Part shown: positions 49,960-64,000 of the stretch, one piece after another
Position numbering within the stretch: position 1 is the stretch's first letter
How the letters are laid out: each line of letters starts with the position of its first letter
DNA from: Raineyella sp. LH-20
Lineage (GTDB): Bacteria; Actinomycetota; Actinomycetes; Propionibacteriales; Propionibacteriaceae
Direction: 5' to 3'
NCBI RefSeq assembly: GCF_033110965.1
Contig: NZ_CP137003.1
Span: 682,001 to 746,000 of the forward strand
Length of the DNA: 64,000 nucleotides
Notes under the pieces: generated by a model
The model's database searches: none
What the model was told of the DNA's origin: nothing
The model's input: the letters and a program-made list of their open reading frames with translations, nothing else
Made by a program: the position numbers and the translations under genes

Positions 49960-50187
49960 ATGTCAACGAGCGTACGCATTCCTGAGGAACTCGAACGGCG
50001 GATCGAAGCGCTCGCCGCCCGGACCCGGCGGTCCAAATCCTTCTACCTCCGTGAGGCCATCGAGCGCGGCCTGCCACAGGTCGAATGGGAGTATGACCTG
50101 GCGCAGCGCGCCGCCGATGTTCGCGCCGGTCGGGTGGCGACGGAGCCTCTGGACGAGGTGGTGCGCGAGCTTGACCTGGGCGATTGA
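49960..50187 (+). CDS. relB: Ribbon-helix-helix antitoxin (RelB/ParD-like)
   Basis: This is a 75-residue protein with a ribbon-helix-helix start (MSTSVRIPEELERRIEALAA, RRSKSFYLREAIERGL) and an acidic C-terminal tail that would wrap the toxin. The tail ends in RELDLGD. An AGGAGA ribosome site supports ATG 49960. It overlaps the toxin start by 17 bases. It neutralises the toxin and probably binds the dyad upstream. Confidence 0.88.
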   Translation: MSTSVRIPEELERRIEALAARTRRSKSFYLREAIERGLPQVEWEYDLAQRAADVRAGRVATEPLDEVVRELDLGD

Positions 50188-50443
50188 CCTGCACCCCGAC
50201 GCGGCGAAACAGCTGCGGCTCCTGGCGCGGCGCGACAAGCCGGCGGCCAGGCGCATCACCGACTTCCTGACCGGCGTCGGCGCCCTCGATGATCCGCGCT
50301 CACGTGGCAAGGCCCTCACCGGCACCTTGGCCGGGCTGTGGCGCTACCGCATCGGTGATTGGCGGGTCGTGGTCGACATCCAGGACAGCCGGCTCGTCAT
50401 CGTGGCCCTCGACATCGACCACCGGTCGCAGGTGTACCGCTGA
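50171..50443 (+). CDS. relE: RelE/ParE-superfamily toxin
   Basis: This is a 90-residue toxin of the RelE/ParE fold. The start is inferred as TTG 50171, which gives MTWAIDLHPDAAKQLRLLAR, the usual RelE beginning. The conserved GLWRYRIGDWRVVVDIQD and terminal HRSQVYR follow. In RelE members this protein cleaves mRNA on the ribosome; ParE members poison gyrase. The motif fits RelE better. Translation inside the antitoxin gene with a weak start keeps the toxin level low. Confidence 0.85.
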   Translation: MTWAIDLHPDAAKQLRLLARRDKPAARRITDFLTGVGALDDPRSRGKALTGTLAGLWRYRIGDWRVVVDIQDSRLVIVALDIDHRSQVYR

Positions 50444-50538
50444 CCGCAGCCGATCCCGCGGTGTCACCGCAACCTCCTAGACTGACGCCGGTCGGTCGCC
50501 ACCACGCGGCGACCACCGGCGTCGACACAGGGGGAAGT

Positions 50539-52362
50539 GTGGCCGAGCAGGATCCGACCGTCCTGGCATACGAACAGGACGTCAACACCGCGTACGTGGC
50601 AGATCTGACACGCCGCGCCGGCGGCTACGAGATCGACGACCGCACCCATTGGAGCCCACGGATCAGCGTCGGACCGTTGATCGGGCGGGTCCGGATGCGC
50701 TACGACGGCGACGAGGCGGACGACGAGTTCTACGTCGCCGAGACGGGCGCCGACCTCGACGGCATCGAGGTGATCAGTTGGGCGGCCCCCGCGGCGGCGT
50801 CCTTCTACGGCAAGAGGTACGGCGAGGAGTCCGGCCTCAAGATCCGCCGGCGTTTCGCCAAGGGGCCGCAGCACGCGATCGGGGCGTACGCGGACGAGTG
50901 GATCATCACCCCGGACGGGCCGGAGTTCAGCACGCCGGAGACATCCCGGACGACCGCCGGCCCCGTGGCCGGCGATCACGCGGCCGGCGACCCCGAAGGC
51001 ACCACCGAGAGCAGCGGTGCGCCCGGCGTCGTTGCGGGCACCGAGCAGGAGCTGCGGACACCCCGGACGTCGCTGAAGGCGCTGCTGCGTACGCTGCAGC
51101 CGGAGCAGTACGACCTGGTCGCCGCCTCCCCGACCGCCTCGCTCACCATCCAGGGCCATGCCGGCACCGGCAAGACCGTCGTCGCGACCCACCGGGCCGC
51201 TTGGCTCACCCACACCGACCGTCCCGACCCGCTGCGGCACGTCGCGCTGATCGGACCGACCGAGACCTGGGGCCGGCACATCCGCCCGGTGATCGACGAG
51301 CTCGCCACCCCGGGCTCGGTGACCATCACCTCGTTGCCGGAGGTGATGCGGGCGATCATCGGCGCCCCGGAACGTCGCGCCTCGAGCGACGACTATCTCG
51401 ATGCCTACTCCGCGCAGCTCGGCACCACGCTCGCCCGGATCGTCGACACGCAGCGGACGGCCGATCCCGGACTCACCCCGGCGCGGGCGTACGAGGTGTT
51501 CCTGCACACCAACAAGGTGTCCATCCCCACGGCGCGGCGCACCGAGTTCTTCGCCTGGCGCGACACCCTGCCACAGACCTACGACGGCGCCCTCGGCGAC
51601 CGGAAGCTGTGGCCCCTGCTGGCCTATCTCACCGTCCTGCTCACACCACAGTCGACGTACGACCATGTCATCGTCGACGAGGCACAGGACCTGCGGCCGC
51701 TGGAATGGCTGATCCTCAGCCATCTCAATGGCGGCGCCTGGACCCTGGTCGGCGACACCCACCAGCGGCGCACCAGTCACACCACCCGCGGCTGGAAGGA
51801 CATCCGCAAGCTCCTCGGCCTGTCCGCGTGGGACGAGGAGGTGTTGCTGGGCGGCTACCGCACCACCCGGTCGATCATCGACTTCGCCGCCTGTCTGCTG
51901 CCCGGGTCCGCCGGACATCGGGCGTACGACGTGCTCGGCGCCGGCGAGCCGCCGCTGATCCTCGACGCCAAGGCCCTCCGCCGGCCGGTCGAGGACCTCG
52001 CCATCGAGCAGGCCGAGCGGCTCTCGGCCGCCCATCCGAAGGGCACCATCGCGGTGATCAGCCCGCTGACCCGCGAGATCGCGGCGTACGCGCAGAAGAA
52101 GGACTGGGTCGAGGGCGCGGACCACTACTGGTCCAACGCTGCTCGGCGTCGGTTCACCTTGCTGACCTCGGAGGAGGCCCGCGGGCTGGAGTTCGACGCG
52201 GTCGTGGTCGTCGAACCGGCCGCCTTCAAGGCGCTGGCCGGCGACAACGGCCCGCTCTACACCGGGCTGACCCGGGCCAACCTCGAGTTGGTCATCATCC
52301 ACGCCCGGTCGTTGCCACCCGCGATGGCGATGCACCTGCGCAAGCATCCGAAAGGTCGATGA
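50539..52362 (+). CDS. HelD-like superfamily 1 ATPase
   Basis: This is a 607-residue UvrD-fold ATPase. Walker A is IQGHAGTGKTVVA (residues 206-213) and Walker B is VIVDEAQDLRPLEW. Late motifs include VGDTHQRRTSH, EEARGLEFDAVVV and YTGLTRA. The N-terminal part VGPLIGRVRMRYD and VISWAAPAAASFYGKRY resembles the start of HelD/HelR proteins, which bind RNA polymerase and free it from DNA or drugs. It is shorter than usual HelD (about 700-750), so a divergent role is likely. A GTG start with GGGGA upstream was chosen. It overlaps the ParA gene by 4 bases. Confidence 0.8.
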   Translation: MAEQDPTVLAYEQDVNTAYVADLTRRAGGYEIDDRTHWSPRISVGPLIGRVRMRYDGDEADDEFYVAETGADLDGIEVISWAAPAAASFYGKRYGEESGLKIRRRFAKGPQHAIGAYADEWIITPDGPEFSTPETSRTTAGPVAGDHAAGDPEGTTESSGAPGVVAGTEQELRTPRTSLKALLRTLQPEQYDLVAASPTASLTIQGHAGTGKTVVATHRAAWLTHTDRPDPLRHVALIGPTETWGRHIRPVIDELATPGSVTITSLPEVMRAIIGAPERRASSDDYLDAYSAQLGTTLARIVDTQRTADPGLTPARAYEVFLHTNKVSIPTARRTEFFAWRDTLPQTYDGALGDRKLWPLLAYLTVLLTPQSTYDHVIVDEAQDLRPLEWLILSHLNGGAWTLVGDTHQRRTSHTTRGWKDIRKLLGLSAWDEEVLLGGYRTTRSIIDFAACLLPGSAGHRAYDVLGAGEPPLILDAKALRRPVEDLAIEQAERLSAAHPKGTIAVISPLTREIAAYAQKKDWVEGADHYWSNAARRRFTLLTSEEARGLEFDAVVVVEPAAFKALAGDNGPLYTGLTRANLELVIIHARSLPPAMAMHLRKHPKGR

Positions 52363-53228
52363 GCATGACGCACATCATCTCGATCCTGAACATGAAGGGT
52401 GGGGTGGGCAAGACCACCACCACCGTGATGCTGGGCGAGTTCCTCGCCGGGGAGCACGGCAAGAAGGTGCTGTTGGTCGACATGGACCCGCAGATCAGCC
52501 TGTCCATCACCATGCTCGGGGAGCGGCAGTGGGGGCTGGTCAACGACGCGCAGCGGACGCTGGTGCCGATGTTCCGCGACGCTCTGGACGCCGGGCGCAG
52601 GGAGCGACGGTTCGACGTCTTCTCGGCGGTCCAGCGCAACGCCTCGAATGTGAAGGCGATCGCCGATGTGGACCTGCTGCCGTCGTCGTACGACGTGATC
52701 CCGCTGCAGCGCCACCTCGCGGTGATGAGCGTGGCCAAACGCGGCACGGTGAAGGCCTGGGACATCCTCGGCCCGGGCATCGCGCCGATCCTCGACGACT
52801 ACGACTATGTGCTGATCGACTGCCCGCCGAGCCTGGAGGTGATGACGATGAACGCACTGCGGATCTCCGAGGGCTACGTCATCCCGACGATCCCGGATGT
52901 GCTGTCGACGTACGGCATCCCGCTGATCCAGGAGCAGGTGATCGACTTCGCCGCCGAGGTGGGGATGACGCCGCCCGCCGAACTCGGCGTGATCGTCACC
53001 AAGCATCTGAAGAACTCCCCCGTGCACCGCGGGCAGCTCGCCCGCCTGCGCAACAGCCACAACGTCCCCGAGTTGCTGTCACCGTGGGTGCCGGAAACCA
53101 GCAAGATCGCCGGCGCGGCCGAGCACCAGCCGTACGCCACGCTGAAGACGAAGTACGGACAGGCGAACTTCCCGGCGCTGCTGGAGCTGTCCGAGGCGTT
53201 CCGGCAGCGGGTCGAGGAGGGCGAATGA
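52359..53228 (+). CDS. ParA/Soj-like ATPase
   Basis: This is a 289-residue deviant Walker ATPase with ISILNMKGGVGKTTTTVMLG (Walker A, residues 13-20), KVLLVDMDPQ, DYVLIDCPPSLEVMT and VIVTKHL. Such proteins form ATP-dependent gradients or dimers on DNA to move plasmids, chromosomes or protein arrays. No ParB gene or parS-like repeat lies beside it. The third gene, with two SAP-like modules, may be its DNA-binding partner. Both ends overlap neighbours by 4 bases, so the three genes work as a unit. Confidence 0.88.
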   Translation: MSMTHIISILNMKGGVGKTTTTVMLGEFLAGEHGKKVLLVDMDPQISLSITMLGERQWGLVNDAQRTLVPMFRDALDAGRRERRFDVFSAVQRNASNVKAIADVDLLPSSYDVIPLQRHLAVMSVAKRGTVKAWDILGPGIAPILDDYDYVLIDCPPSLEVMTMNALRISEGYVIPTIPDVLSTYGIPLIQEQVIDFAAEVGMTPPAELGVIVTKHLKNSPVHRGQLARLRNSHNVPELLSPWVPETSKIAGAAEHQPYATLKTKYGQANFPALLELSEAFRQRVEEGE

Positions 53229-54145
53229 GCACGACCAGCACCGGGCGGGACGTGCCCGCCGGCTCCACCAGGCCCACCACCGGCGCCACCGGACGCACCA
53301 TCACCGACTCCACCAGGCCTACCGGCGCCACCGGACGCACCATCACCGACTCCACCAGGCCTACCGGCGCCACCGAACCCCTCGACGACGTCAGCGCGGC
53401 CGCGGCCGCCCTCCGCGCGCTGGCTGCGGCCGACGGCGGCGAGGTCCTGGCCCGGCAGTTGTCCCGGCTGGTGATGGTCATTGCCGACGAGGCCGTCCGG
53501 ACCAAGCGCTTCCGCGGCGACCTGCTGGCGGCCCTGACCGTCGAGCCGGTGTCCGATCCCGCGGTGTCCGAACTCACGGTGTCCAAGCCCCCGGCGTCCG
53601 GGCCCCTGACGCGCACCCAATTGCAGCGGCTGACCAAGGCCGACCTGAAGAAGCTGATCGACCGTGGCGGGATGGACCGGGATCGTACGCTCCGCTCCCA
53701 CTCGACCAAGGGGGAGATGGTCGAGCTGATCCTGGCGTTCCAGATGTCCCCGGGGGAAGGGACTCGCACCGAGGACACACCCGGGGCGGACCCAGCCGGC
53801 GCGGAATCAGCACTCGCCGTCGACCCCGTCGCCCCGCGTGACACCGCAGCGGCCGTGACCGAGGACCCGGGTCTGCCGGCCAACCCGCCCAAACGTCGCC
53901 GGCGCCCCGCACCCCTCGACCCGTACGCCCTCGCCGCCAGCGAGGGCGTGGACGGTCTCCGGCGCCGGCTGCGGCGCCTCGACATCGAGGCGCTGAAGGA
54001 CATCATCGCCGAGTACGGCATGAACTACGACGGCCGCGCGATGAGCTGGCGCGACCACCACCGTTTTGTGGAGCGGATCGTCGAGAAGGCCGACTTCGCC
54101 GCGACGCAGGGCGGCGCATTTCGCCCCAGGCGGAAGGACCTATAG
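53225..54145 (+). CDS. Protein with two SAP-like DNA-binding modules, unknown
   Basis: This is a 306-residue protein. Residues 17-50 hold two copies of a Thr-rich TGATGRTITDSTRP repeat. About 52-105 is helical. Residues 136-172 (LTKADLKKLIDRGGM then the RSHSTKGEMVELIL part) and 251-287 (LDIEALKDIIAEYGM then SWRDHHRFVERIVE) share a pattern like the SAP helix-extended-helix DNA-binding fold. A Pro/Ala-rich linker with KRRRR joins them. I recognise no full-length family. It is the last gene of the HelD-ParA operon and may anchor the complex on DNA. Confidence 0.68.
   Translation: MSTTSTGRDVPAGSTRPTTGATGRTITDSTRPTGATGRTITDSTRPTGATEPLDDVSAAAAALRALAAADGGEVLARQLSRLVMVIADEAVRTKRFRGDLLAALTVEPVSDPAVSELTVSKPPASGPLTRTQLQRLTKADLKKLIDRGGMDRDRTLRSHSTKGEMVELILAFQMSPGEGTRTEDTPGADPAGAESALAVDPVAPRDTAAAVTEDPGLPANPPKRRRRPAPLDPYALAASEGVDGLRRRLRRLDIEALKDIIAEYGMNYDGRAMSWRDHHRFVERIVEKADFAATQGGAFRPRRKDL
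53258..53369 (+). repeat. 42-base in-frame tandem repeat
   Basis: Two almost identical 42-base units (each containing GGACGCACCATCACCGACTC) and a partial third stand in a row within the 5' end of the SAP-module gene. The unit keeps the frame and encodes the Thr-rich repeat. The surrounding gene shows no other repeats. Confidence 0.7.
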
Positions 54146-54202: not shown

Positions 54203-57200
54203 TCAGGCCGACTCGGTCTGACCGTCGACGTCCACGATCGGGTCATCCGGAAGATCCGGGCGACGCACTTTGAACGCGATTCTGCCGGCAGGGGCTGAGC
54301 CCAGAGGGAGAGCGTAGGAGAACAAGGTAGCGATGTCTTTCGGGGACGTCGGGTTCGGTAGCTTTTCGGGGTCCGTGACGCCCTTGGCGTCGTGGAAGCG
54401 GGCCGACGTGCTGTCTCCCGCGAACGTCAGGAGGAATGCCCCTCGGGCAGGCACCTTGAGCGCCTTGACGTGTGCGTATTCCGCCAGGTCGAGTGCGGAG
54501 GCGATGGGACCGCCGATGTCGACAGTGTCGGCGTCGATTCCGCCCGAAACGGCCTGCAACGCGTTGCGCTGGCGAGTCGAGGAACCGGAGAACTGCCACG
54601 GCCGGTCGGAGCGCCGGTAGCGACGCATGACCTTGAGCGCACGGTTCCCGACGATACGAGTTGGCAGTGAGGCAATCTCCGGGACGATGATCGCCCAGTC
54701 CTTGAGAGTGCCCTCGGCGATGGCCTTCTGCATGAATGCGAGGTACGGGGCGATCTTGAAGTTGCTCGCCCAGCTGAACTTCCGGATGACTTCGACGAGG
54801 CTGCTGGCGTCCACGATCCCGAAGTGGGCATGCCACGGTCGCGGATCGCCGGCATCGTTCACGTAGAAGAAGTCGCCCTCGCTGTCGGCGGCGTCGAGCA
54901 GCGGCTGCACGGAATCAAAATGCTTCTCGTTGGCGTCGTCGTCATGCTCACCCTGCTGGTTGAAGTCGACCACCTTCCCGCCTTCGCCCTGCTCGGTGAG
55001 CTCGGCGTTGTACATCTTGTTCGCGCTGGTCGGCTTGAGGTACGGAAGGCTCTGGTAGACCAGCGGCGGGACGTCCATCGGCCGGACTCGCGGGCGACCG
55101 TCCTCATCGAAGCCCTGGAACCTCCGCAACTCGTCGCGGAAGTCCTCTTCGTCGCGCACGATCGCCTCGAAGGACTTGTAGAGGTCGATGACCTCGTTCC
55201 GCGGCGCCGGCACGTTCCGCCCGATGTAAAGCCGGACCAGATCGCGGTAGTGCGGCCGGTACCCGAACCAGCGGCCCATCTGCATCAGTGTGTCTGCGGC
55301 GACAGTGCGGCGCGTGTAGTAGGAGACCGTCAGTCCCTCGACGGTGAACCCGCGGGACAGTTTGGTGCCGCCGACGAGGATCTTCCACACGTCCCCGGAT
55401 TGGAAGTTGATATCGGCTTGGAGATAGTCCTTCTCGGCGACGCCGTTGACGATGACGACGGGGTTGACGCCCTGCTGGATCTTGTCGACCGCACGCCCGA
55501 TGTGCGGACGCAAAGCATTGAAGTCGGGGATGGTCGGAGCCTCAGGTGCGCGGGCCTCCGTCACGGGGCGGAAGTCGGAGACCCACAAGTCGTGCAGGCG
55601 CTTGAGTCCAGCGGGCAATTCGTAACCGGCCGAGGTCCAGACTCGTCGGATGTCGGCGGCCAGGGCCTCGTGCTCTGCAGTCTTCACGGACTCGTGGACG
55701 AGCATCGTGTGGTGCCTGAAGAGGTTCGGCTTGCCGAGCGCCACCGCCCGGAACAACTTGATGGCACCCGACAGCACGTACGCGTCGAGGGCGGCGACCA
55801 TCTCCTTGTCGCGCGCCTCGATATCGTCGGGATCAGCGACCAGGGACCTGATGAAGGCCCTCTCGTTCGAGTTCGCGACCGTCAGATCATTGGGGTCGTC
55901 CTCGTCTTCGTCCTCGCTGCGGTCGAGGTCATGAAAATCGCGCCCGCCCATGTAGTCGTCCGGAGGGTTCAAACTGACGATGAAGTCCTTGGGGAAGATG
56001 TCCTGGGCATCCTCGGGGTCGACGAACACGTTGGCGAACGGCGTCGCGGTGTAGCCGACGTACTGCGCTCGCCTCAGCTCCCCGAGAAGCTGGGCGATGA
56101 GACGGTTGATCGCAGTGCGTTCCCTCTCCTCGGTAGCGTCCTTCTTCGGCCGCGTCGTGTTGATCGACGCCTGGTCCGCCTCATCGTCGACGATCAGTGT
56201 CGGAATTTCCCCGAGGTCCGTCTTCGTCGACTGCAGGTCGTGCACGAGCTTCTTGAGTACCCTGCTGTTCTTCTTGACGACGGCGATGCGGATGTCCGGC
56301 CGATAGATGTTCTGCTCGTAGTAGAGCGGGCGCGCCGGGTCGACGAGGTGATCGGTCTGCCGGAAGTCGAGGTATCCGAGGCCGGCCTTGAGAAGCTTGT
56401 AGTCGTCCTTGGCGCCGGTGAGTCGACGGATTCCGGGGAGTCCGAGTTCCTTGGGATCCTTGCCGTAGGAGACGAACCTGCCTTCGTACCAGTCAATGTC
56501 GCCATCGCCGATGTAGTCGACCGAGGCGACGAGTTCCGCATTGTCACGGGGCACCCCGCCGAGGATGTTCTCCTCGCCGACGAGTTCCATGTCGAGACGG
56601 CGCTGCGTCTGCCCGCGCAGAAGTTCGATCGTACCGGTGAGGACGATGACGAGCTTGTACCCGACGTCGATCGCCTTGGCGATCACGCCCGTGAAGTTGG
56701 CAGTCTTGCCCGACTGGACATGACCCACCACCAGGCCCTTGGACTGGTAGGGGTCGTTTCGCGTGGGGTTCGCAAGTCGCTTGACGACCTCGTCGGTCGT
56801 GCGGTCGAGTTCTGCGACTGCGGAGGCGCTCCATCCTTTCTCCTCCAGGACGCCGCGGTAGCCGTCCCAGTAGAACGAGTGCTGTGCGGCCAAGTCGCTC
56901 GAGTACCAGGGGTCCCAGTCGGCGGGCTTGCCCGAGATGACGACCGCGCCGGCAAGGCTCGCGGGAAGGGCATTGTCGATCTGTGCCTGCGATTCCTCGC
57001 AGAACCCGAGAGCGCCCAGGATCACGCGCCGGCGATCGGGAGTGTTCGCCGCTGTGCCGTCCGACCACGACGGGTCGGATGCAGAGTCCCACCTGGCGAG
57101 CTGGATGTGGAAGTCGGACCGCGCAGCATCGTTCACATCACCTGACGTAAGTATCCCGACGAGGTCGGCCTCGGTGTATTCGCCCGGGACACCGGCTTCG

Positions 57201-57298
57201 CCCAACTCGAATTGGACTCGCCTGAGCATGGGCTTCGGGCTGCCCTTGCTCATCCCTCGGACGACGCTGACGACTGCCTCGGTGTACGGATCGCTCAC
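54203..57298 (-). CDS. Z1-domain ATPase (helicase-like restriction component)
   Basis: This is a 1031-residue protein of the Z1 family, known from gene clusters with MORC/MutL-like ATPases and PD-(D/E)XK nucleases. Walker A is VVGHVQSGKTANF (residues 192-199) and the DEAD-like Walker B is LIVDDEADQ (about 368-376). The family block FTVEGLTVSYYTRR and MGRWFGYRPHYRDLVRLY follows at about 670-720. It probably moves on or remodels DNA for the system. The start is GTG 57298 with AGGAGG upstream, 1 base after the nuclease gene stop. Base composition is less GC-rich than the catabolic genes. Confidence 0.88.
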   Translation of the reverse strand: MSDPYTEAVVSVVRGMSKGSPKPMLRRVQFELGEAGVPGEYTEADLVGILTSGDVNDAARSDFHIQLARWDSASDPSWSDGTAANTPDRRRVILGALGFCEESQAQIDNALPASLAGAVVISGKPADWDPWYSSDLAAQHSFYWDGYRGVLEEKGWSASAVAELDRTTDEVVKRLANPTRNDPYQSKGLVVGHVQSGKTANFTGVIAKAIDVGYKLVIVLTGTIELLRGQTQRRLDMELVGEENILGGVPRDNAELVASVDYIGDGDIDWYEGRFVSYGKDPKELGLPGIRRLTGAKDDYKLLKAGLGYLDFRQTDHLVDPARPLYYEQNIYRPDIRIAVVKKNSRVLKKLVHDLQSTKTDLGEIPTLIVDDEADQASINTTRPKKDATEERERTAINRLIAQLLGELRRAQYVGYTATPFANVFVDPEDAQDIFPKDFIVSLNPPDDYMGGRDFHDLDRSEDEDEDDPNDLTVANSNERAFIRSLVADPDDIEARDKEMVAALDAYVLSGAIKLFRAVALGKPNLFRHHTMLVHESVKTAEHEALAADIRRVWTSAGYELPAGLKRLHDLWVSDFRPVTEARAPEAPTIPDFNALRPHIGRAVDKIQQGVNPVVIVNGVAEKDYLQADINFQSGDVWKILVGGTKLSRGFTVEGLTVSYYTRRTVAADTLMQMGRWFGYRPHYRDLVRLYIGRNVPAPRNEVIDLYKSFEAIVRDEEDFRDELRRFQGFDEDGRPRVRPMDVPPLVYQSLPYLKPTSANKMYNAELTEQGEGGKVVDFNQQGEHDDDANEKHFDSVQPLLDAADSEGDFFYVNDAGDPRPWHAHFGIVDASSLVEVIRKFSWASNFKIAPYLAFMQKAIAEGTLKDWAIIVPEIASLPTRIVGNRALKVMRRYRRSDRPWQFSGSSTRQRNALQAVSGGIDADTVDIGGPIASALDLAEYAHVKALKVPARGAFLLTFAGDSTSARFHDAKGVTDPEKLPNPTSPKDIATLFSYALPLGSAPAGRIAFKVRRPDLPDDPIVDVDGQTESA

Positions 57299-57299
57299 G

Positions 57300-58283
57300 T
57301 CAAGCCTCCTGGGCTGTGGGTGCAGAGATGAAGACGGCAAGCGGTTCGCCAGGCGAGCCAGCGGCTCGGCCGGACACATCCACACGGTAGGTGACGTCAC
57401 TGACGAGGTCGCTGTGCGGCACGATCGAGCGCAAACGCTCGGGGGTCACTGCGGGAAAATCGTCGTCGACGAGGTACGCGGCAGGCGTCGTTCGGAGCAC
57501 GTAGGCGGTGGGATACATCGCCGCGTCGTCCTCGTCCCACCCTTCGGACGCGAGGTGGCTGACAAACCGATCACGTGTGCCGATCAGGCGATCGCGGATC
57601 TCGCCGATCAGTCCCGGAAGTCGGATCCCCAGGGGATCGCCACCTGCGCGTGTGATCTGAATGGACACCAGCCAAAGGGACCGCCCCGGGCTCGGCTCGA
57701 GCTGGCCAGCACCGTGTATCACGTGCGTCCGCGACTCGCCGAGCGTGGTCTTGACCTCGGCGTCGAACGCAGGGAACGCGAAGTCGCGTTCCTCCGCCAG
57801 TGGTCCGAGCCACCAGTCGACGACCGTGTATTCGTCGAAGGTGTCCAGGAGCGTACGGTACAGCAGGAGTTCGCCGAACAACCCGATCTGTCTCTCCTCG
57901 GAGATACGTGGTTTGGCCGCGAGGAGCGCCTTCATGTTCGTCATCGCGGCGGACGAGGCCGCGGCGAAGGTCGCGCCACCGCGCATCGCCTGGACGACGG
58001 AAAGCACCAGCCCGTAGGCCTCGGCGTACATGCCGCGCGCATCCAGAGTGAGGCGAGCCCACTCGACCCCGGCACGCATGTCGATGCCGGTGGTGACTCG
58101 ACGGAGGGTGGCGGTGTCGAGCATCATCCCGTTGCGCGGCGTGAGGACCGAGATCCTCTGGCCCGGGCTGTCGACGGTGATGATCACCTCAGGGAAGTCA
58201 TTGACGTGGTGGGTCGTGACCGTTCCGCTGCGGAAGTACTTCTCCAGTGTGTCGGGGCTCAGCTGGTCCGATGGCGTCATCAC
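57300..58283 (-). CDS. PD-(D/E)XK nuclease-like protein (DUF4420 type)
   Basis: This is a 327-residue protein. The nuclease core is seen as GLFGELLLYRTLL (Glu138), RDFAFPAFDAEVKTT (Asp174, Glu176-x-Lys178) and a following SLWLVSIQI strand, the PD-(D/E)XK order. The N-terminal TTHHVNDFPEVIITVDS and NGMMLDTATLRRVTTGIDMR parts match DUF4420 proteins that accompany Z1 and GHKL genes. It is the probable DNA-cutting subunit. The start may be GTG 58283 or ATG 58280. Confidence 0.85.
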   Translation of the reverse strand: MMTPSDQLSPDTLEKYFRSGTVTTHHVNDFPEVIITVDSPGQRISVLTPRNGMMLDTATLRRVTTGIDMRAGVEWARLTLDARGMYAEAYGLVLSVVQAMRGGATFAAASSAAMTNMKALLAAKPRISEERQIGLFGELLLYRTLLDTFDEYTVVDWWLGPLAEERDFAFPAFDAEVKTTLGESRTHVIHGAGQLEPSPGRSLWLVSIQITRAGGDPLGIRLPGLIGEIRDRLIGTRDRFVSHLASEGWDEDDAAMYPTAYVLRTTPAAYLVDDDFPAVTPERLRSIVPHSDLVSDVTYRVDVSGRAAGSPGEPLAVFISAPTAQEA

Positions 58284-58289
58284 AGTTGC

Positions 58290-59804
58290 TCACTCTCCCT
58301 GAGTACGCGCTGATTGCGTCGTGATGGCCGACAGCAGGATGGACTGCCACGCGGTGTCCTCCCGCTTCTTCTTCGCACCGCCCCCGGTGCCGACGAAATG
58401 GTCCTTGAGCAGCAGAAGAAGAAGGCTCTTGACCACGGGGGCGTCCTCGATGTCAAGGCTCTTGTGACCGGCGAGTACAGCCCGGTATGTCGCATTCAGG
58501 AACAGGACGTGCTCATCCACGTCGATCTTGTAGACCTGGCGCGCGGGCAGAACCCGCCACTTGATGTCGATGGGGAAGACGTCGTTCGGATCGGTGTGGA
58601 TAGCGAATGCATCCTTCACGGCCTTGGGGAGACCGTCACCGGGCAGAGGCGCTTCGATCGGCGTTGCCGACCGTTGTCGGGAGATCTTCGCCTCCTGCTT
58701 CGCCGCCGTGCGATAGGAGGCGAGAGTAGTCCCGTCCGAGGCCCTGGCGTGATCGAGCGCACTCCGCAACTCGTCGTCGAAGGCGGACCCGGCCTTCTCG
58801 GGATTGATGATCAGGTGCCGTTCCATCTCGGCCGTCACGTCGATGGCCACGCGGGCGAAATTCAGATCGACGCTCGGCTTCGCCAGTCCGTTCCATCCAC
58901 CGGCCTGCAGCAGCCGATCGTTTCGGTAGATATAGAGGCCCTGCGACTCGAGGGGTGAACGGTTGCCTTGCACGAACCCGGGCCCCTTGTGCCAATGGGG
59001 CCAGATGTGAAGATGCGCAATCGCCGTCGCATCACCGACGTCGACGGGGAGATCCTTCGGATAGCCCGGGCGTCCGAATCCTCGGTGAGCGAACGGGTCG
59101 ATGGCGGTCACGGTTCTCGGCGCTCCCGCGAACCGCAACGGGACGTCGTATGTCTCGATCCTCAGCGACAGCTCACCTCTGGAGAGGATGCGGTGCATCA
59201 CGAGTCCGAGGTGGTCGACCAGTTCCTGGGTCGTTGCGTTCACCCACCCGATCTGCTCGCTCTCGCTCGACGAGGTGAGGAACGTCTGCACGTCCTGCCA
59301 CTCGACGATCGTCCCGGTCTCCAGGGGAAAGTCGACATCTGCATTCGCGAGGGTCTCGGCGGCGTCAGCGGTGGAGAACTCCTCGACCAGGGGACCTGTG
59401 TCGAGGGTCTCTCTGCGCAGCCGCCGGCCGACGGCCGGTGAGCCGTAGCGCTTCGACCAGACGACCAGGGTGTTGGCCTGACTGAGGGATGCTGCCTTGA
59501 GCCCGATGCCGAAGTGCCCGAGGTCGCGTCCCTTGTACTCCCGCTTCTTGGCGTAGATCATGGCGTTGTCGATGCCTGCGGAATCCATCCCGGACGCGTC
59601 ATCGATGACCTGCAACCCGACCGGCCGGTTCCCCTCCATCAGGAATCGCACCAGCACGTGCGTCGCGCCGAAGTCGATGCTGTTGTCCACGAGATCGGCA
59701 ATGGCCGTCGCCAGCGTGTGGTGTCTTCCGATCGCAGAGGTGATCGACGGATCGGGAGGCACGACCTTCGATCCGACGGGTTGCGGCGTGAGCGGGCCAG
59801 CCAC
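58290..59804 (-). CDS. GHKL-fold ATPase, MORC/MutL-like
   Basis: This is a 504-residue protein whose first half is a histidine-kinase/MutL-like ATPase domain: TLATAIADLVDNSIDFGATH (N box), VIDDASGMDS (G1) and DLGHFGIGLKAASLSQA (G2). The usual N-box Glu is Asp here (ADLVDN), which many bacterial members of this type share. The second half has a partner-interaction region without named motifs. Such ATPases act as ATP-gated clamps in modification/restriction-like clusters. GTG 59804 overlaps the previous stop by 1 base. Confidence 0.87.
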   Translation of the reverse strand: MAGPLTPQPVGSKVVPPDPSITSAIGRHHTLATAIADLVDNSIDFGATHVLVRFLMEGNRPVGLQVIDDASGMDSAGIDNAMIYAKKREYKGRDLGHFGIGLKAASLSQANTLVVWSKRYGSPAVGRRLRRETLDTGPLVEEFSTADAAETLANADVDFPLETGTIVEWQDVQTFLTSSSESEQIGWVNATTQELVDHLGLVMHRILSRGELSLRIETYDVPLRFAGAPRTVTAIDPFAHRGFGRPGYPKDLPVDVGDATAIAHLHIWPHWHKGPGFVQGNRSPLESQGLYIYRNDRLLQAGGWNGLAKPSVDLNFARVAIDVTAEMERHLIINPEKAGSAFDDELRSALDHARASDGTTLASYRTAAKQEAKISRQRSATPIEAPLPGDGLPKAVKDAFAIHTDPNDVFPIDIKWRVLPARQVYKIDVDEHVLFLNATYRAVLAGHKSLDIEDAPVVKSLLLLLLKDHFVGTGGGAKKKREDTAWQSILLSAITTQSARTQGE

Positions 59805-62800
59805 TACAGGTCCCCGAAGCTGCTGTTCACCACGGCGAGGTCGCCGGCGTTCTGCTTGATTGCGCGCACGGTGTTCTCGTCGAAGCCGTCGGACTTCTGT
59901 GCATCCACCGTCAGCGTGATGTCCAGGACGTCCGGGTCCGCGTTGCGCAGCAGATCGAGGATCTCCTGCGCGATCGTCTGCAGCTCCGTCGGCATGTCTC
60001 CTCCAGGGTCGATGACGTGTCGGAGCGAGTACGTCGCGTTCGTGATTCGTCGCGGCGGCAGTGTCGGCGTTGCGCTCCTCGTCGCGCCCATCCCGTCGCC
60101 GCCTGGCTCATCCCCAGGTGACAGAGCTGTGTTGCTGTTCCCCGGCACGGGTCGCGGCTGCACTGCCTTGGACCGCTCACGCTCACGTTGCGCGACTGCG
60201 AGGTCGGGTCGTACGACGAGTGTCCTGTCGTCGAAGGGCCCGAACTCGGTGTCTTCCAGCGGTACGGCCAAGCCGAGGAAATCACCGGTCGTGGTGTCGA
60301 AGCCCGCAGCCAGAGCGAAACCCGTGTCGAGGAAGGCCACGTCGAAGAGCGACTCCTCCAATGCGCGTACGAGGACCGCCTTGTCCCGTAGGCGGTGCAG
60401 GTAGGGATACCGCGTGTAGTAGGCCCATAACTCGGTGAAGCTGATGAATCCGCGGGTCCACCGTGCGCGCAGGAATTCCTCGACATCGAGCCGGATCACC
60501 CGATCGGCGATGTAGGAGTGTGCGATGTCTGCGGCGGCGAGCTTCGCGCTGATGCGCTTGGTGAGGTTCCTCTCCTGCCCGTCCGCACGGACCTGTCCGA
60601 CGGCGAACGGCGCTTGCGGATCGTCCTGCACCGCGTGCAGACCCCAGATCCATGTATGCCCGAGTCGGTCGTCGACAGTACGGTTCGCGGCCTCGAGCAT
60701 CGACTGCGCCTGCGCAGCGGCCGACTGTGTCAGGTCCAGGCGTGCCGTCTCGTTGAAGATCGAGTTCCACGCAACGTACGAACGCACCGCGGACTCCAAC
60801 GTTCCCCACTGCTTGTCGTCCGCGGCGACCGCGACGATGGTGTTGACGTTCGAACGCGGGGCTTTGCCCCGCTGCCGCAGTAGATCGTACACCCACCTCG
60901 CGGCGCTGGAGTCCTTGTCCTTGCCGTTGTGGGTGTATTGAGGCGGGACGACGACCAGACGCAAGTAGTCCGCCTCTTCCACCTCGGAGGACGACTCCGG
61001 GTGCACGACGCCGGCGATGATGTCGGTCGAACCTTTGAACACGCGCTTGAGCCGCGTCGCCACCTCCCCGTACACCGCGTCGTACGACAGTTGGGCGGCC
61101 CGTTCGGCAGCGAGCCGGTTCAAGGACGGCTGGGTGTCGTACCAGAACCGCCCGTCTTCGGCGTAGTAGTGCGAGGACTTCTCCTGCAGGCCGTCGAGCA
61201 CCGAGCCGACGTTACCCAGAACGTCGCCGGGCATGGCGACACCGAGCGTGATGCTCTTGCGGTCCTTTCCCTTGAGCGCGGCGTCGAGGGTGGGCGTGGC
61301 CTCGACGAAGATCGTCCGAGCCGTGCGCAGAGCGAGCGAACGGTCGCCCAGCGCTGGCCGTTCCTCGTCCACGGTGCGGGCGACGGAGTTGTCCCCGTCG
61401 ATCTCCGACTGGATGATCGCGTCCCACGCATTGTCGAGATACTGAACGATCTCGCTGCGGACCGGCTGGGCATCAAGTGGGATCGACCCGGTCATGATCA
61501 GCGGAGACAGGTCCTCGCGCTCGTAGAGCTCGTGGACGACGTGGCTCATGAGCCGCAACACGCCACGGGTGCGCTGGAACTTCTCCAGGGTCGACCAGTC
61601 GGAGTAGAGCCGGTCCAGCAGCTCGGGATGGATCGGGTAGGCCGCCTTGATCCGCGACTCGTACTCGGACTCCCCGACGCCGGTGGGGAACTCCTTGTGG
61701 TTGTGGCGGTAGTAGTCGGTGAACCGTCGTGCCGCCGAGGCGATGGTCTGAATCGCGTTGGCGTCCGGCTCCTCGAAGAGCCGGCGGCGCACGATCTCGT
61801 ACGACTCGTCGCGGGTGGCCGGACTCCACTGGTAGGCGACCCGACGGATGACATAGTCCAGGCGGTGCAACGTGTCGCGGCCACGCTGCCCACCGACCTC
61901 CAGATCGCTCGCCCTGGGGGTCTCACCCTCCTGGTAGTCCCGGTCTGACGTCACCTGCCGGCCCTCACTGGCCGGTACCGAGACGAGCAGCAGCGTGCCG
62001 GGCACGTTCTCCGCTGCGAGGGTCAGGGACTGGGCGAAAGTGAACTGGGTCTCGAACAACCCGCCCGGGACGGGACGCATCGGGTCCGGCGCATCGGGGA
62101 GCTGGCGGGCGTAGGCAACCCACTCGTCGATCAGGATGAGGGCCGGGCCGAATTTCGTGAACAGCTCGCGCAGCAGGTTGCCGGGGTTGGTTCCCGTCTC
62201 GTCGGCGTCCGCGACGATCGCGTACCCCTCCGCACCACCGAGTTGCCAGGCCAGCTCGCCCCACAGTGTGTGCACCACGGTGCCGTCGGGCTTCTGTGAC
62301 GGCGTCGCCGGCGGGATCTCGTTGCCTACCAGCGCAGCTTTGCGGACGGGCTTACCCAGGACGTCGGCGTGTTCGCCGGCCAGCAGGTCCTGGACACCCT
62401 GGGGGAACTCGTACAGAGAGCGTCCGGAGAACAAGTGCCACACCGCCAGCATCGAGTGGGTCTTGCCGCCACCGAACGTGGTCTGCAGGTTGATGACCGG
62501 GTTGGCCGACCCCGAGCCGGAGATACGGTCGACCGCGCGGCGCAGCAGCTCCTTGAGACCGGCGGTCAGGTAGGTCCGGCGGAAGAACTCGACCGGGTCC
62601 TGGTACTCGCTCGCGGCATTGCCCTGCACGGCGACCGAGTACAGGTCGGCGGCGAACTCGGCGTTGTTGTAGCGCCCCGTTGCCACGTCCGCGTGGGGCT
62701 TGAGCACGTCGCGCCAGGACGGCAACGCCGCGTCCGCAGTACCGGGCAACGCCGCGGCACGCACGGCCTTGCGGGTCCGCTGCTCGAAGTCGCCACTGAG

Positions 62801-63226
62801 GATGTCAAGGCGGGCCTTGCGGACCGCGTCCGCCTCGCGGGCTGCACCGACCGCGCGCATCACCCGCTCGATGGTGTCCAGCGCCCGTACCGCGTCGTCG
62901 GGGGCGAACGGTTTGAAGTGTGCGACGTCGTTACGCACTCCGCGCAACTCACCCACGAACCCCTGCTCGGTGCGCGACAGGTGGGCATTGAACAAGTACC
63001 CGAGCTGGCCGATCGGCTCGGTGATGATGCGGAATTGGTCCTGTGGATCGGTCCGCGAGTACTCCTTACCCTCGATGCCCTTCTGAGCATCCTTCGCGGC
63101 CAGGAGCACGGTCCAGTCCTTGCCAGCGGGCACGTGCAGCGCGGTGACCCGCTCGATGTAGGGGTCCAGCACTCCCGCCAGAGACTGCAGCGCTGTGCGC
63201 ACCGCCTCAATGTTGCTCGACGCCAT
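59804..63226 (-). CDS. DUF499-family ATPase with N-terminal Swt1-like HEPN domain
   Basis: This is a 1140-residue protein. The first about 130 residues match the Swt1-type HEPN domain, with the RNase-like RNDVAH (R98-x4-H103). The ATPase core has Walker A TTFGGGKTHSML (residues 252-257) and Walker B ALILIDEWVAYAR. The region from about 1000 is a charged linker with a C-terminal domain ending in ITLTVDAQKSDGFDENTVRA. DUF499 proteins accompany DUF1156 DNA methyltransferases, as here. It probably couples sensing to the effector genes. Its ATG overlaps the methyltransferase stop by 1 base. Confidence 0.86.
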   Translation of the reverse strand: MASSNIEAVRTALQSLAGVLDPYIERVTALHVPAGKDWTVLLAAKDAQKGIEGKEYSRTDPQDQFRIITEPIGQLGYLFNAHLSRTEQGFVGELRGVRNDVAHFKPFAPDDAVRALDTIERVMRAVGAAREADAVRKARLDILSGDFEQRTRKAVRAAALPGTADAALPSWRDVLKPHADVATGRYNNAEFAADLYSVAVQGNAASEYQDPVEFFRRTYLTAGLKELLRRAVDRISGSGSANPVINLQTTFGGGKTHSMLAVWHLFSGRSLYEFPQGVQDLLAGEHADVLGKPVRKAALVGNEIPPATPSQKPDGTVVHTLWGELAWQLGGAEGYAIVADADETGTNPGNLLRELFTKFGPALILIDEWVAYARQLPDAPDPMRPVPGGLFETQFTFAQSLTLAAENVPGTLLLVSVPASEGRQVTSDRDYQEGETPRASDLEVGGQRGRDTLHRLDYVIRRVAYQWSPATRDESYEIVRRRLFEEPDANAIQTIASAARRFTDYYRHNHKEFPTGVGESEYESRIKAAYPIHPELLDRLYSDWSTLEKFQRTRGVLRLMSHVVHELYEREDLSPLIMTGSIPLDAQPVRSEIVQYLDNAWDAIIQSEIDGDNSVARTVDEERPALGDRSLALRTARTIFVEATPTLDAALKGKDRKSITLGVAMPGDVLGNVGSVLDGLQEKSSHYYAEDGRFWYDTQPSLNRLAAERAAQLSYDAVYGEVATRLKRVFKGSTDIIAGVVHPESSSEVEEADYLRLVVVPPQYTHNGKDKDSSAARWVYDLLRQRGKAPRSNVNTIVAVAADDKQWGTLESAVRSYVAWNSIFNETARLDLTQSAAAQAQSMLEAANRTVDDRLGHTWIWGLHAVQDDPQAPFAVGQVRADGQERNLTKRISAKLAAADIAHSYIADRVIRLDVEEFLRARWTRGFISFTELWAYYTRYPYLHRLRDKAVLVRALEESLFDVAFLDTGFALAAGFDTTTGDFLGLAVPLEDTEFGPFDDRTLVVRPDLAVAQRERERSKAVQPRPVPGNSNTALSPGDEPGGDGMGATRSATPTLPPRRITNATYSLRHVIDPGGDMPTELQTIAQEILDLLRNADPDVLDITLTVDAQKSDGFDENTVRAIKQNAGDLAVVNSSFGDL

Positions 63227-64000
63227 CAGACCTCACCCACGAAGTCGAAGCCATCCTGAACCGCTGGACGGAGCTGAACATGACCGGCCGCTGCGGTCAG
63301 ATCCGTCCAGGATCCACCAAGCAGATTGAACAGCCGCGCGTCGTCCGGACGTGACTTTTGCGTCATCTCGTACAGGCGGTAGGCCAATCTCTGGACGGAC
63401 TCGACATCGATCTCCGGGCGAGTCCCCGCGGCGACCATGAGCTTCGCCGCTGCCTCAAGCCCGCCGTCCTCGGCGGACAGCACTCGCACGAGGTGCATCG
63501 CTGTCTCCCACACGGAGATGCTGTGGTCGGTCGCCGGGTTCCAGGTCGCCGGGAGGCTCGCAGGGGGAACCAGTTGGACCGTACTGCCGTTCTTGGTCAG
63601 CACACCGCTGTTGAGCAAGGAAGGCTCGCTGGTGCCGTACGCCTGCGAGAGACTGATGCCGTCTCCCGACGGGCCCGCGGCCCACCCGTACTGCGCATAC
63701 CAGGTGAGGCAGAACCTCGTGGTCGGATCGAGATCGCCCTCTTGCTCGGAGAGCACCTCGTCAACCACCTGGTTTATGACCGCGATCGCAGTCTTGACTG
63801 ACATATCCGAACCGTCGTTCTCCACGACGCCCTCGTAGCGGGAGAAGACGCCCATCCCAGGACCGATTGTCGCCTGGGCGAGGTCCACCGGGGCGATTGC
63901 TACCTGGCGCATCTTCTCCAACGCGCGGGGCAGCTCGCGCTTAAGCGTGGCGACGAACCCACGGCGGGAGGTTCGGCCTGCGGCCATATGGCGCGGACGT
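63226..64000 (-). CDS. DUF1156-type DNA methyltransferase, C-terminal part
   Basis: This gene runs off the window. About 257 residues are seen. They match the end of DUF1156 adenine-type methylases: RRGFVATLKRELPRALEKM, QATIGPGMGVFSRYEGVVEN, INQVVDEVLSEQEGDLD, WYAQYGWAAGPSGDGISLSQ and the later DHSISVWETAMHLVRVL. The frame is open to base 64000, and the preceding residues RPRH fit the usual VCRPR block, so no start lies here. It would mark self DNA. The catalytic motifs lie outside the window, so the methylase assignment relies on family context. Confidence 0.85.
   Translation of the reverse strand, partial: RPRHMAAGRTSRRGFVATLKRELPRALEKMRQVAIAPVDLAQATIGPGMGVFSRYEGVVENDGSDMSVKTAIAVINQVVDEVLSEQEGDLDPTTRFCLTWYAQYGWAAGPSGDGISLSQAYGTSEPSLLNSGVLTKNGSTVQLVPPASLPATWNPATDHSISVWETAMHLVRVLSAEDGGLEAAAKLMVAAGTRPEIDVESVQRLAYRLYEMTQKSRPDDARLFNLLGGSWTDLTAAAGHVQLRPAVQDGFDFVGEV

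Follow-up and report, generated by a model that had tools for sequence, protein, structure and literature searches.

A composite operon in Raineyella sp. LH-20 combines Hma-type methylase and ATPase genes with an MZA-like effector module and recurs in actinobacteria

The last 9.8 kb of a 64,000-nucleotide stretch of the Raineyella sp. LH-20 genome (contig NZ_CP137003.1, positions 682001–746000; hereafter, the window) raise the question of whether genes resembling parts of two different anti-phage systems form a single system or simply lie side by side. The minus strand of this segment carries the end of a DNA methylase gene and four complete genes, and all five are touching or nearly so, confirming the five-gene operon that an earlier note, made from the sequence of the window, had described. 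The genome consists of one contig of 3.63 Mb (completeness score, 100%), and the methylase gene, hmaB, could be completed by reading past the window end to its start at contig position 748072 (L002:13072). In this operon, the marking half of one known anti-phage system is joined to the cutting half of another; the combination recurs in many actinobacteria and thus looks less like an accidental neighbourhood than like a stable system in its own right.

Pfam and PADLOC both place HmaB and HmaC firmly among the Hma proteins and find the remaining three proteins to resemble MzaB, MzaC, and MzaD, which supports the proposal of the earlier note that two normally separate gene sets have been joined in one operon. 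The DUF1156, DUF499, and DUF4420 domains named there were all found by the domain search. HmaB (948 aa), a DUF1156 DNA adenine N6-methylase whose C-terminal 257 codons lie within the window (63226..64000), matches DUF1156 with an E-value of 6e-29 and the PADLOC HmaB model with 1059 bits. HmaC (59804..63226; 1140 aa) combines a Swt1-like HEPN domain (HEPN_Swt1, 4.1e-24) with a DUF499 AAA+ ATPase domain (3.6e-24) and scores 777 bits with the PADLOC HmaC model. These are followed on the same strand by MzaB (58290..59804; 504 aa), a GHKL ATPase of the MORC/MutL type; MzaD (57300..58283; 327 aa), a putative PD-(D/E)XK nuclease matching DUF4420 (8.5e-31); and MzaC (54203..57298), which carries Walker A and motif II residues. 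The MzaB profile matches MORC2, PMS2, and MutL chains, and its predicted model (mean pLDDT 73.8) matches the ATPase modules of SMCHD1, Hsp90, MutL, and MORC3. The HmaC and MzaC profiles gave no match to solved structures at E ≤ 0.01, and MzaC searched alone gave three matches, all with E-values of 0.27 or worse.

Within the order to which Raineyella belongs, HmaC was identified in 42 and MzaB in 23 of 391 sampled genomes, and the two are neighbours in 6. A scan of named genomes using an MzaB alignment (six composite and two other sequences) as query covered the best 80 of 449 relatives, among which 22 are composite, a figure that does not represent prevalence; in a phylum sample of 396 genomes, an MzaB match exceeding 180 bits was obtained only in Raineyella sp. 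LH-20 itself. Ten family profiles, of which those for Vsr and AIPR were each built from one sequence, were run over the loci from the scan and the order sample, and removal of duplicates left 26 loci containing HmaC and MzaB together (composite loci). These span 12 named actinobacterial families and one Acidimicrobiales metagenome-assembled genome, with members in Propioniciclava, Propionicimonas, Williamsia, Gordonia, Mycobacterium sp., Amorphoplanes, Isoptericola, Promicromonospora, Actinotalea, Blastococcus, Microbacterium, Pseudoclavibacter, Yonghaparkia, Leucobacter, Agromyces, Phycicoccus, Tetrasphaera, Nocardioides, and Actinomyces. The order HmaB-HmaC-MzaB-MzaD-MzaC, whose conservation the earlier note had left to be checked, is complete in 25 of the 26 loci, the other being interrupted by a contig end, and the one-base overlap seen in the window, where the HmaC stop codon ends on the first base of MzaB, is also present at the MzaB match in L080, L081, L083, L085, and L089. 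Upstream of hmaB, past the window, a same-strand gene for a Vsr endonuclease is followed by a divergent cytosine methylase (Dcm) gene; Dcm is present in 17 and Vsr in 16 of the 26 composite loci.

The catalytic residues, counted on aligned columns, are well retained. HmaB frames of <800 codons were excluded from HmaB comparisons, and all 23 composite HmaBs of at least 800 residues retain the motif I and DPPY residues. The Walker A and B residues of HmaC are present in 26/26 composite loci, the E-D-ExK residues of MzaD in 77/77 aligned homologues, and the Walker A and motif II residues of MzaC in 83/83 aligned homologues.

The telling absence from the composite loci is that of the helicase-nuclease HmaA, not that of DUF3780. 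When the complete Raineyella genome was searched with the canonical HmaA of a relative, the best matches reached 67 and 65 bits (approximately 200 residues each), with one more of 18 bits, and a location of HmaA elsewhere in this genome was thus rejected. HmaA at 300 bits or more was found in none of the 26 composite loci (two of which lack flanks); L088 has a helicase match of 139 bits downstream. In the order sample, HmaA is present in 33 of the 36 non-composite genomes with HmaC, and of the other three, two have weak HmaC matches and one is only 71% complete. By comparison, five of the six composite genomes lack an HmaA match at E ≤ 1e-40, and composite genome G101 contains, on another contig, a shorter SNF2 protein (41–46% identical); the association between HmaA and composite status gives P = 1.6e-5 in Fisher's test, or 3.7e-4 when the G101 match is counted. 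DUF3780 had no Pfam match in the 6 + 8 proteins scanned. A DUF3780-type DUF499 system (BR Type-2) was rejected as an identification because the NCBIfam DUF499 and DUF1156 anti-phage models, which we take to describe that type, scored far too low (132/1200 and 119/1000 bits, respectively). The earlier note had pointed to the lack of DUF3780 when suggesting a distinct system, but this lack does not support novelty: in the accessible text of the BREX-related paper PMC12839542, DUF3780 is specific to Type-2, and HEPN-fused DUF499 is part of Type-1.

Phylogenetic relationships were inferred from 'quick' trees, which are unrooted, carry SH-aLRT support only, and raised long-branch warnings, L061 and L096 being among the sequences concerned. 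The 26 composite HmaCs form one side of a branch with an SH-aLRT value of 100 in the HmaC tree (55 proteins), apart from the 29 others (25 from genomes and 4 from plasmids). An HmaA match was obtained in the genomes of 24 of the 25 genome-derived comparison proteins, the exception being G368 (71% complete), and, for each of the four plasmid-derived ones, the annotation of the stretch includes a helicase or restriction-subunit gene. With the most distant rows placed outside, the composite clade falls among actinobacterial Hma proteins, a position that fits one swap, the direction of which is unproven in an unrooted tree. Among the composites, the pairwise identities of HmaC, MzaB, MzaD, and MzaC co-vary with r values of 0.91–0.96 (0.91–0.95 for HmaC against the effector proteins) over a range of HmaC identities from 41 to 98%. 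HmaC is thus a long-standing companion of the MzaB-D-C effector, which can persist without it. Given the order in 25/26 loci and the single HmaC clade, chance adjacency within a defence island is unlikely, and we conclude that the composite is a real, recurring system, neither an artefact nor a chance neighbourhood.

Target specificity is likely to reside in the central region of HmaB. In 30 composite pairs with HmaCs at least 75% identical (mean, 85%), HmaB identity averages 82% over residues 10–290, 50% over 300–540, and 76% over 570–940; these means and the co-variation analysis include the longer HmaB piece of L062, whose values for the last region carry no meaning and pull the means down. 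The corresponding values in the Actinomyces pair L109/L110 are 96, 47, and 97%, with HmaCs 97% identical. The variable stretch is located between motif I (residue 122) and DPPY (545), and four canonical Hma pairs behave likewise (56% in the middle versus 83 and 79%). According to the accessible text of PMC12839542, these methylases carry their target-recognition insert behind core strand 2, and this insert may correspond to the variable stretch of HmaB. If HmaC or the effector were the sequence reader, each swap of this stretch would uncouple marking from cutting; HmaB thus probably supplies specificity to both, by analogy with BrxX, which supplies specificity in BREX according to the accessible part of PMC11842806. 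Among Actinomyces L109, L110, and L114, HmaCs are 97–98% identical and central HmaB regions 45–64% identical, indicating recent shuffling of parts.

The best reading, to which we assign a probability of roughly 0.6 as a whole, is a composite restriction-modification system in which HmaB and HmaC license the MzaB-D-C effector, in agreement with the earlier suggestion of methylation-guided restriction relying on a GHKL clamp and a PD-(D/E)XK cutter. Its biochemical steps, all of which we infer, would be as follows. The central region of HmaB would read the target sequence, and the enzyme would methylate adenine in self DNA; at an unmethylated site, HmaC, an ORC/BrxC-like AAA+ ATPase, would assemble on HmaB and license the effector. 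MzaB would then close on DNA as an ATP-dependent clamp, MzaC would serve as an ATP-consuming motor on double-stranded DNA, and MzaD would cut the DNA, the three together occupying the place of HmaA, the single helicase-nuclease polypeptide of canonical Hma. As a last resort, the HEPN RNase domain of HmaC probably acts as an effector, and the linked cytosine methylase and Vsr probably provide a second, optional modification branch serving the same cutter.

Several observations weigh against this reading. Literature searches turned up no published test of the activity of this combination, and the MzaD model (mean pLDDT 82.8) has no fold match in the PDB at E ≤ 0.001, so that its nuclease fold rests on Pfam and the E-D-ExK residues. 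HmaB co-varies less tightly with the other composite proteins (r = 0.72–0.78). On the MzaC tree (81 proteins), the composite label requires eight changes, at least six of which are forced by well-supported branches, so that the halves have repeatedly been lost or re-joined; furthermore, Actinomyces L109 and L114 share 97.8% identity in HmaC versus 76.6% in MzaB, which shows that the front end moves independently and exchanges partners. A search for HmaB/HmaC remnants in 63 non-composite loci gave matches in seven, three of which were counted; those in L124, L138, L150, and L156 were discounted, as they derive from the L121 query, the stop-to-stop frame of which holds Vsr-like residues before the methylase. 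In Jiangella L119, the HmaB N-terminus is fused into a tail ending like the HmaC C-terminus (by eye; 32% match, E = 1.2e-4). An HmaB N-terminus remains in Cellulomonas L111, and Sinomonas L140 has 21 codons of this terminus; these scars show that MzaB-D-C can survive the loss of HmaB and HmaC. Finally, hmaB is split into separate pieces in three of the 26 composite loci (L062, L080, and L088), in which the HmaC and effector frames are open. The breaks contain no homopolymer run of 7 or more, and if they are real rather than sequencing errors, HmaB would at times be dispensable for protection.

The same scars, adjoining MzaB-D-C, lend some support to an alternative in which two independent systems are co-transcribed, i.e. 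a helicase-less Hma remnant (an orphan adenine methylase and a HEPN ATPase) beside a complete MZA-like restriction system guided by Dcm and Vsr; indeed, many non-composite loci (e.g. L098, L103, and L106) contain MzaB-D-C with Dcm and Vsr and without HmaB/HmaC. We regard this alternative as rather unlikely, since a remnant would hardly retain its gene order in 25 of 26 loci, its catalytic residues, and a tight co-variation with the effector, and since the composite HmaCs form one clade. Moreover, a Dcm of at least 200 bits was unseen in nine of the 26 composite loci, of which L082 and L092 are cut near the operon, L081 has a Dcm fragment only, L063 has a sigma-like gene instead, and L083, L087, L088, L096, and L153 were searched over at least 3 kb upstream.

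Still less probable is a modification-dependent (type IV-like) restriction system sensing foreign methylation or base changes, with HmaB and Dcm as regulators or decoys. EVE-domain proteins, which bind modified bases, are placed beside archaeal DUF499 operons in the accessible text of PMC7641849, but the operon includes a methylase with a fast-changing central region, as in self-protecting systems, and a Pfam scan of the five operon proteins found no EVE, SRA, or similar reader domain. Conservation of the HEPN residues in composite HmaCs (R in 25/26 and H in 26/26) could point instead to abortive infection, with the HEPN RNase of HmaC as the killing effector and the DNA module as its sensor. 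However, the nuclease residues of MzaD are at least as well kept (77/77), and the HEPN residues are found equally in the seven canonical HmaCs aligned (R in six and H in seven) and are thus not particular to the composite, making this explanation similarly improbable.

Reading upstream beyond position 64000, as the earlier note had proposed, yielded not only the rest of the methylase, Vsr, and Dcm but also an AIPR/AbiU-like gene farther out than Dcm (L002:14966-16801). The G+C content of this stretch is approximately 0.53–0.57, versus 0.63–0.71 in adjoining windows, and the gene is possibly a separate recent arrival. Directly downstream of the operon, on the plus strand (window positions 50168-54145), are genes for a ParE-type toxin, a HelD/UvrD-like helicase, and a ParA-like ATPase; no tRNA gene was found nearby.

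Related loci contain other partners. In L091:1028-3766 and L141:9959-13315, a long MzaB-type GHKL ATPase is fused to sigma-70 regions 1.2, 2, and 4 (and 3 in L141); both proteins adjoin Dcm, MzaC and MzaD are present in the same loci, and the L091 copy is a second GHKL protein. Such a fusion of a sigma-factor-like DNA reader to a clamp ATPase looks unusual. Proteins of approximately 1100 residues occupy the place of HmaC upstream of MzaB-MzaD-MzaC in L152:6591-9953, L148:6471-9950, and L154:6594-9956, which are alike, and likewise in plasmid p2MP of Arthrobacter sp. 68b (L174:7669-10959). Those of L152 and L148 have a sacsin-type domain, and the HmaC C-terminus matches sacsin-like proteins weakly (9.6–11.8 bits; E-values from eight sequences), which is a lead rather than a result. 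Proteins of approximately 700 residues adjoin MzaB or MzaC in L063:16405-18534, L065:13487-15622, and L090:7939-9984, and those of L063 and L065, which resemble MzaA only weakly, combine an RNA polymerase alpha C-terminal domain with sigma-70 region 4.

Among known systems, CglI/NgoAVII has, in the accessible text of PMC4267653, just three genes, lacks a DUF499 or GHKL protein, unlike the composite, and uses a nuclease that has a B3 recognition domain built in and an active site of the PLD type. A published system with the same three core families (DUF4220, as printed) is similarly associated with DNA repair endonucleases; the available section and legend leave its further three genes unnamed, the available main text does not contain the word 'adenine', and an overlap with the composite is possible. 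The composite proteins are homologous to MzaB, MzaC, and MzaD of MZA, yet fall far below the NCBIfam equivalog cut-offs (112/850, 293/1500, and 61/420 bits, respectively), and, unlike MZA/MORC operons, the composite has HmaB and HmaC upstream. No MzaA sigma-70-like protein was found among the scanned operon and neighbour proteins, and of the 26 composite loci only L063 yielded a sigma-like gene with the SigA profile; matches to the MzaA model at 2.56–2.87 Mb of the Raineyella genome are probably ordinary sigma factors, the same model having matches in 10 of 14 control genomes. MzaE of MZA is an AIPR protein, and an AIPR/AbiU-like gene lies beyond Dcm; its one-sequence profile matched no other locus and so gave no support for AIPR as a conserved part, but this profile is insensitive, having also missed the Pfam AIPR protein of L123. 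With the Hma/BREX-related Type-1 systems, the composite shares a DUF1156 N6-methylase followed by a HEPN-fused DUF499 ATPase (another gene may intervene in canonical loci, e.g. L067 and L172) and a central methylase region of low identity, and differs from them in lacking the core-locus SNF2 helicase, usually nuclease-fused, that is HmaA. The composite is therefore best filed between the Hma/BREX-related and the MZA/MORC restriction systems, as a full member of neither.
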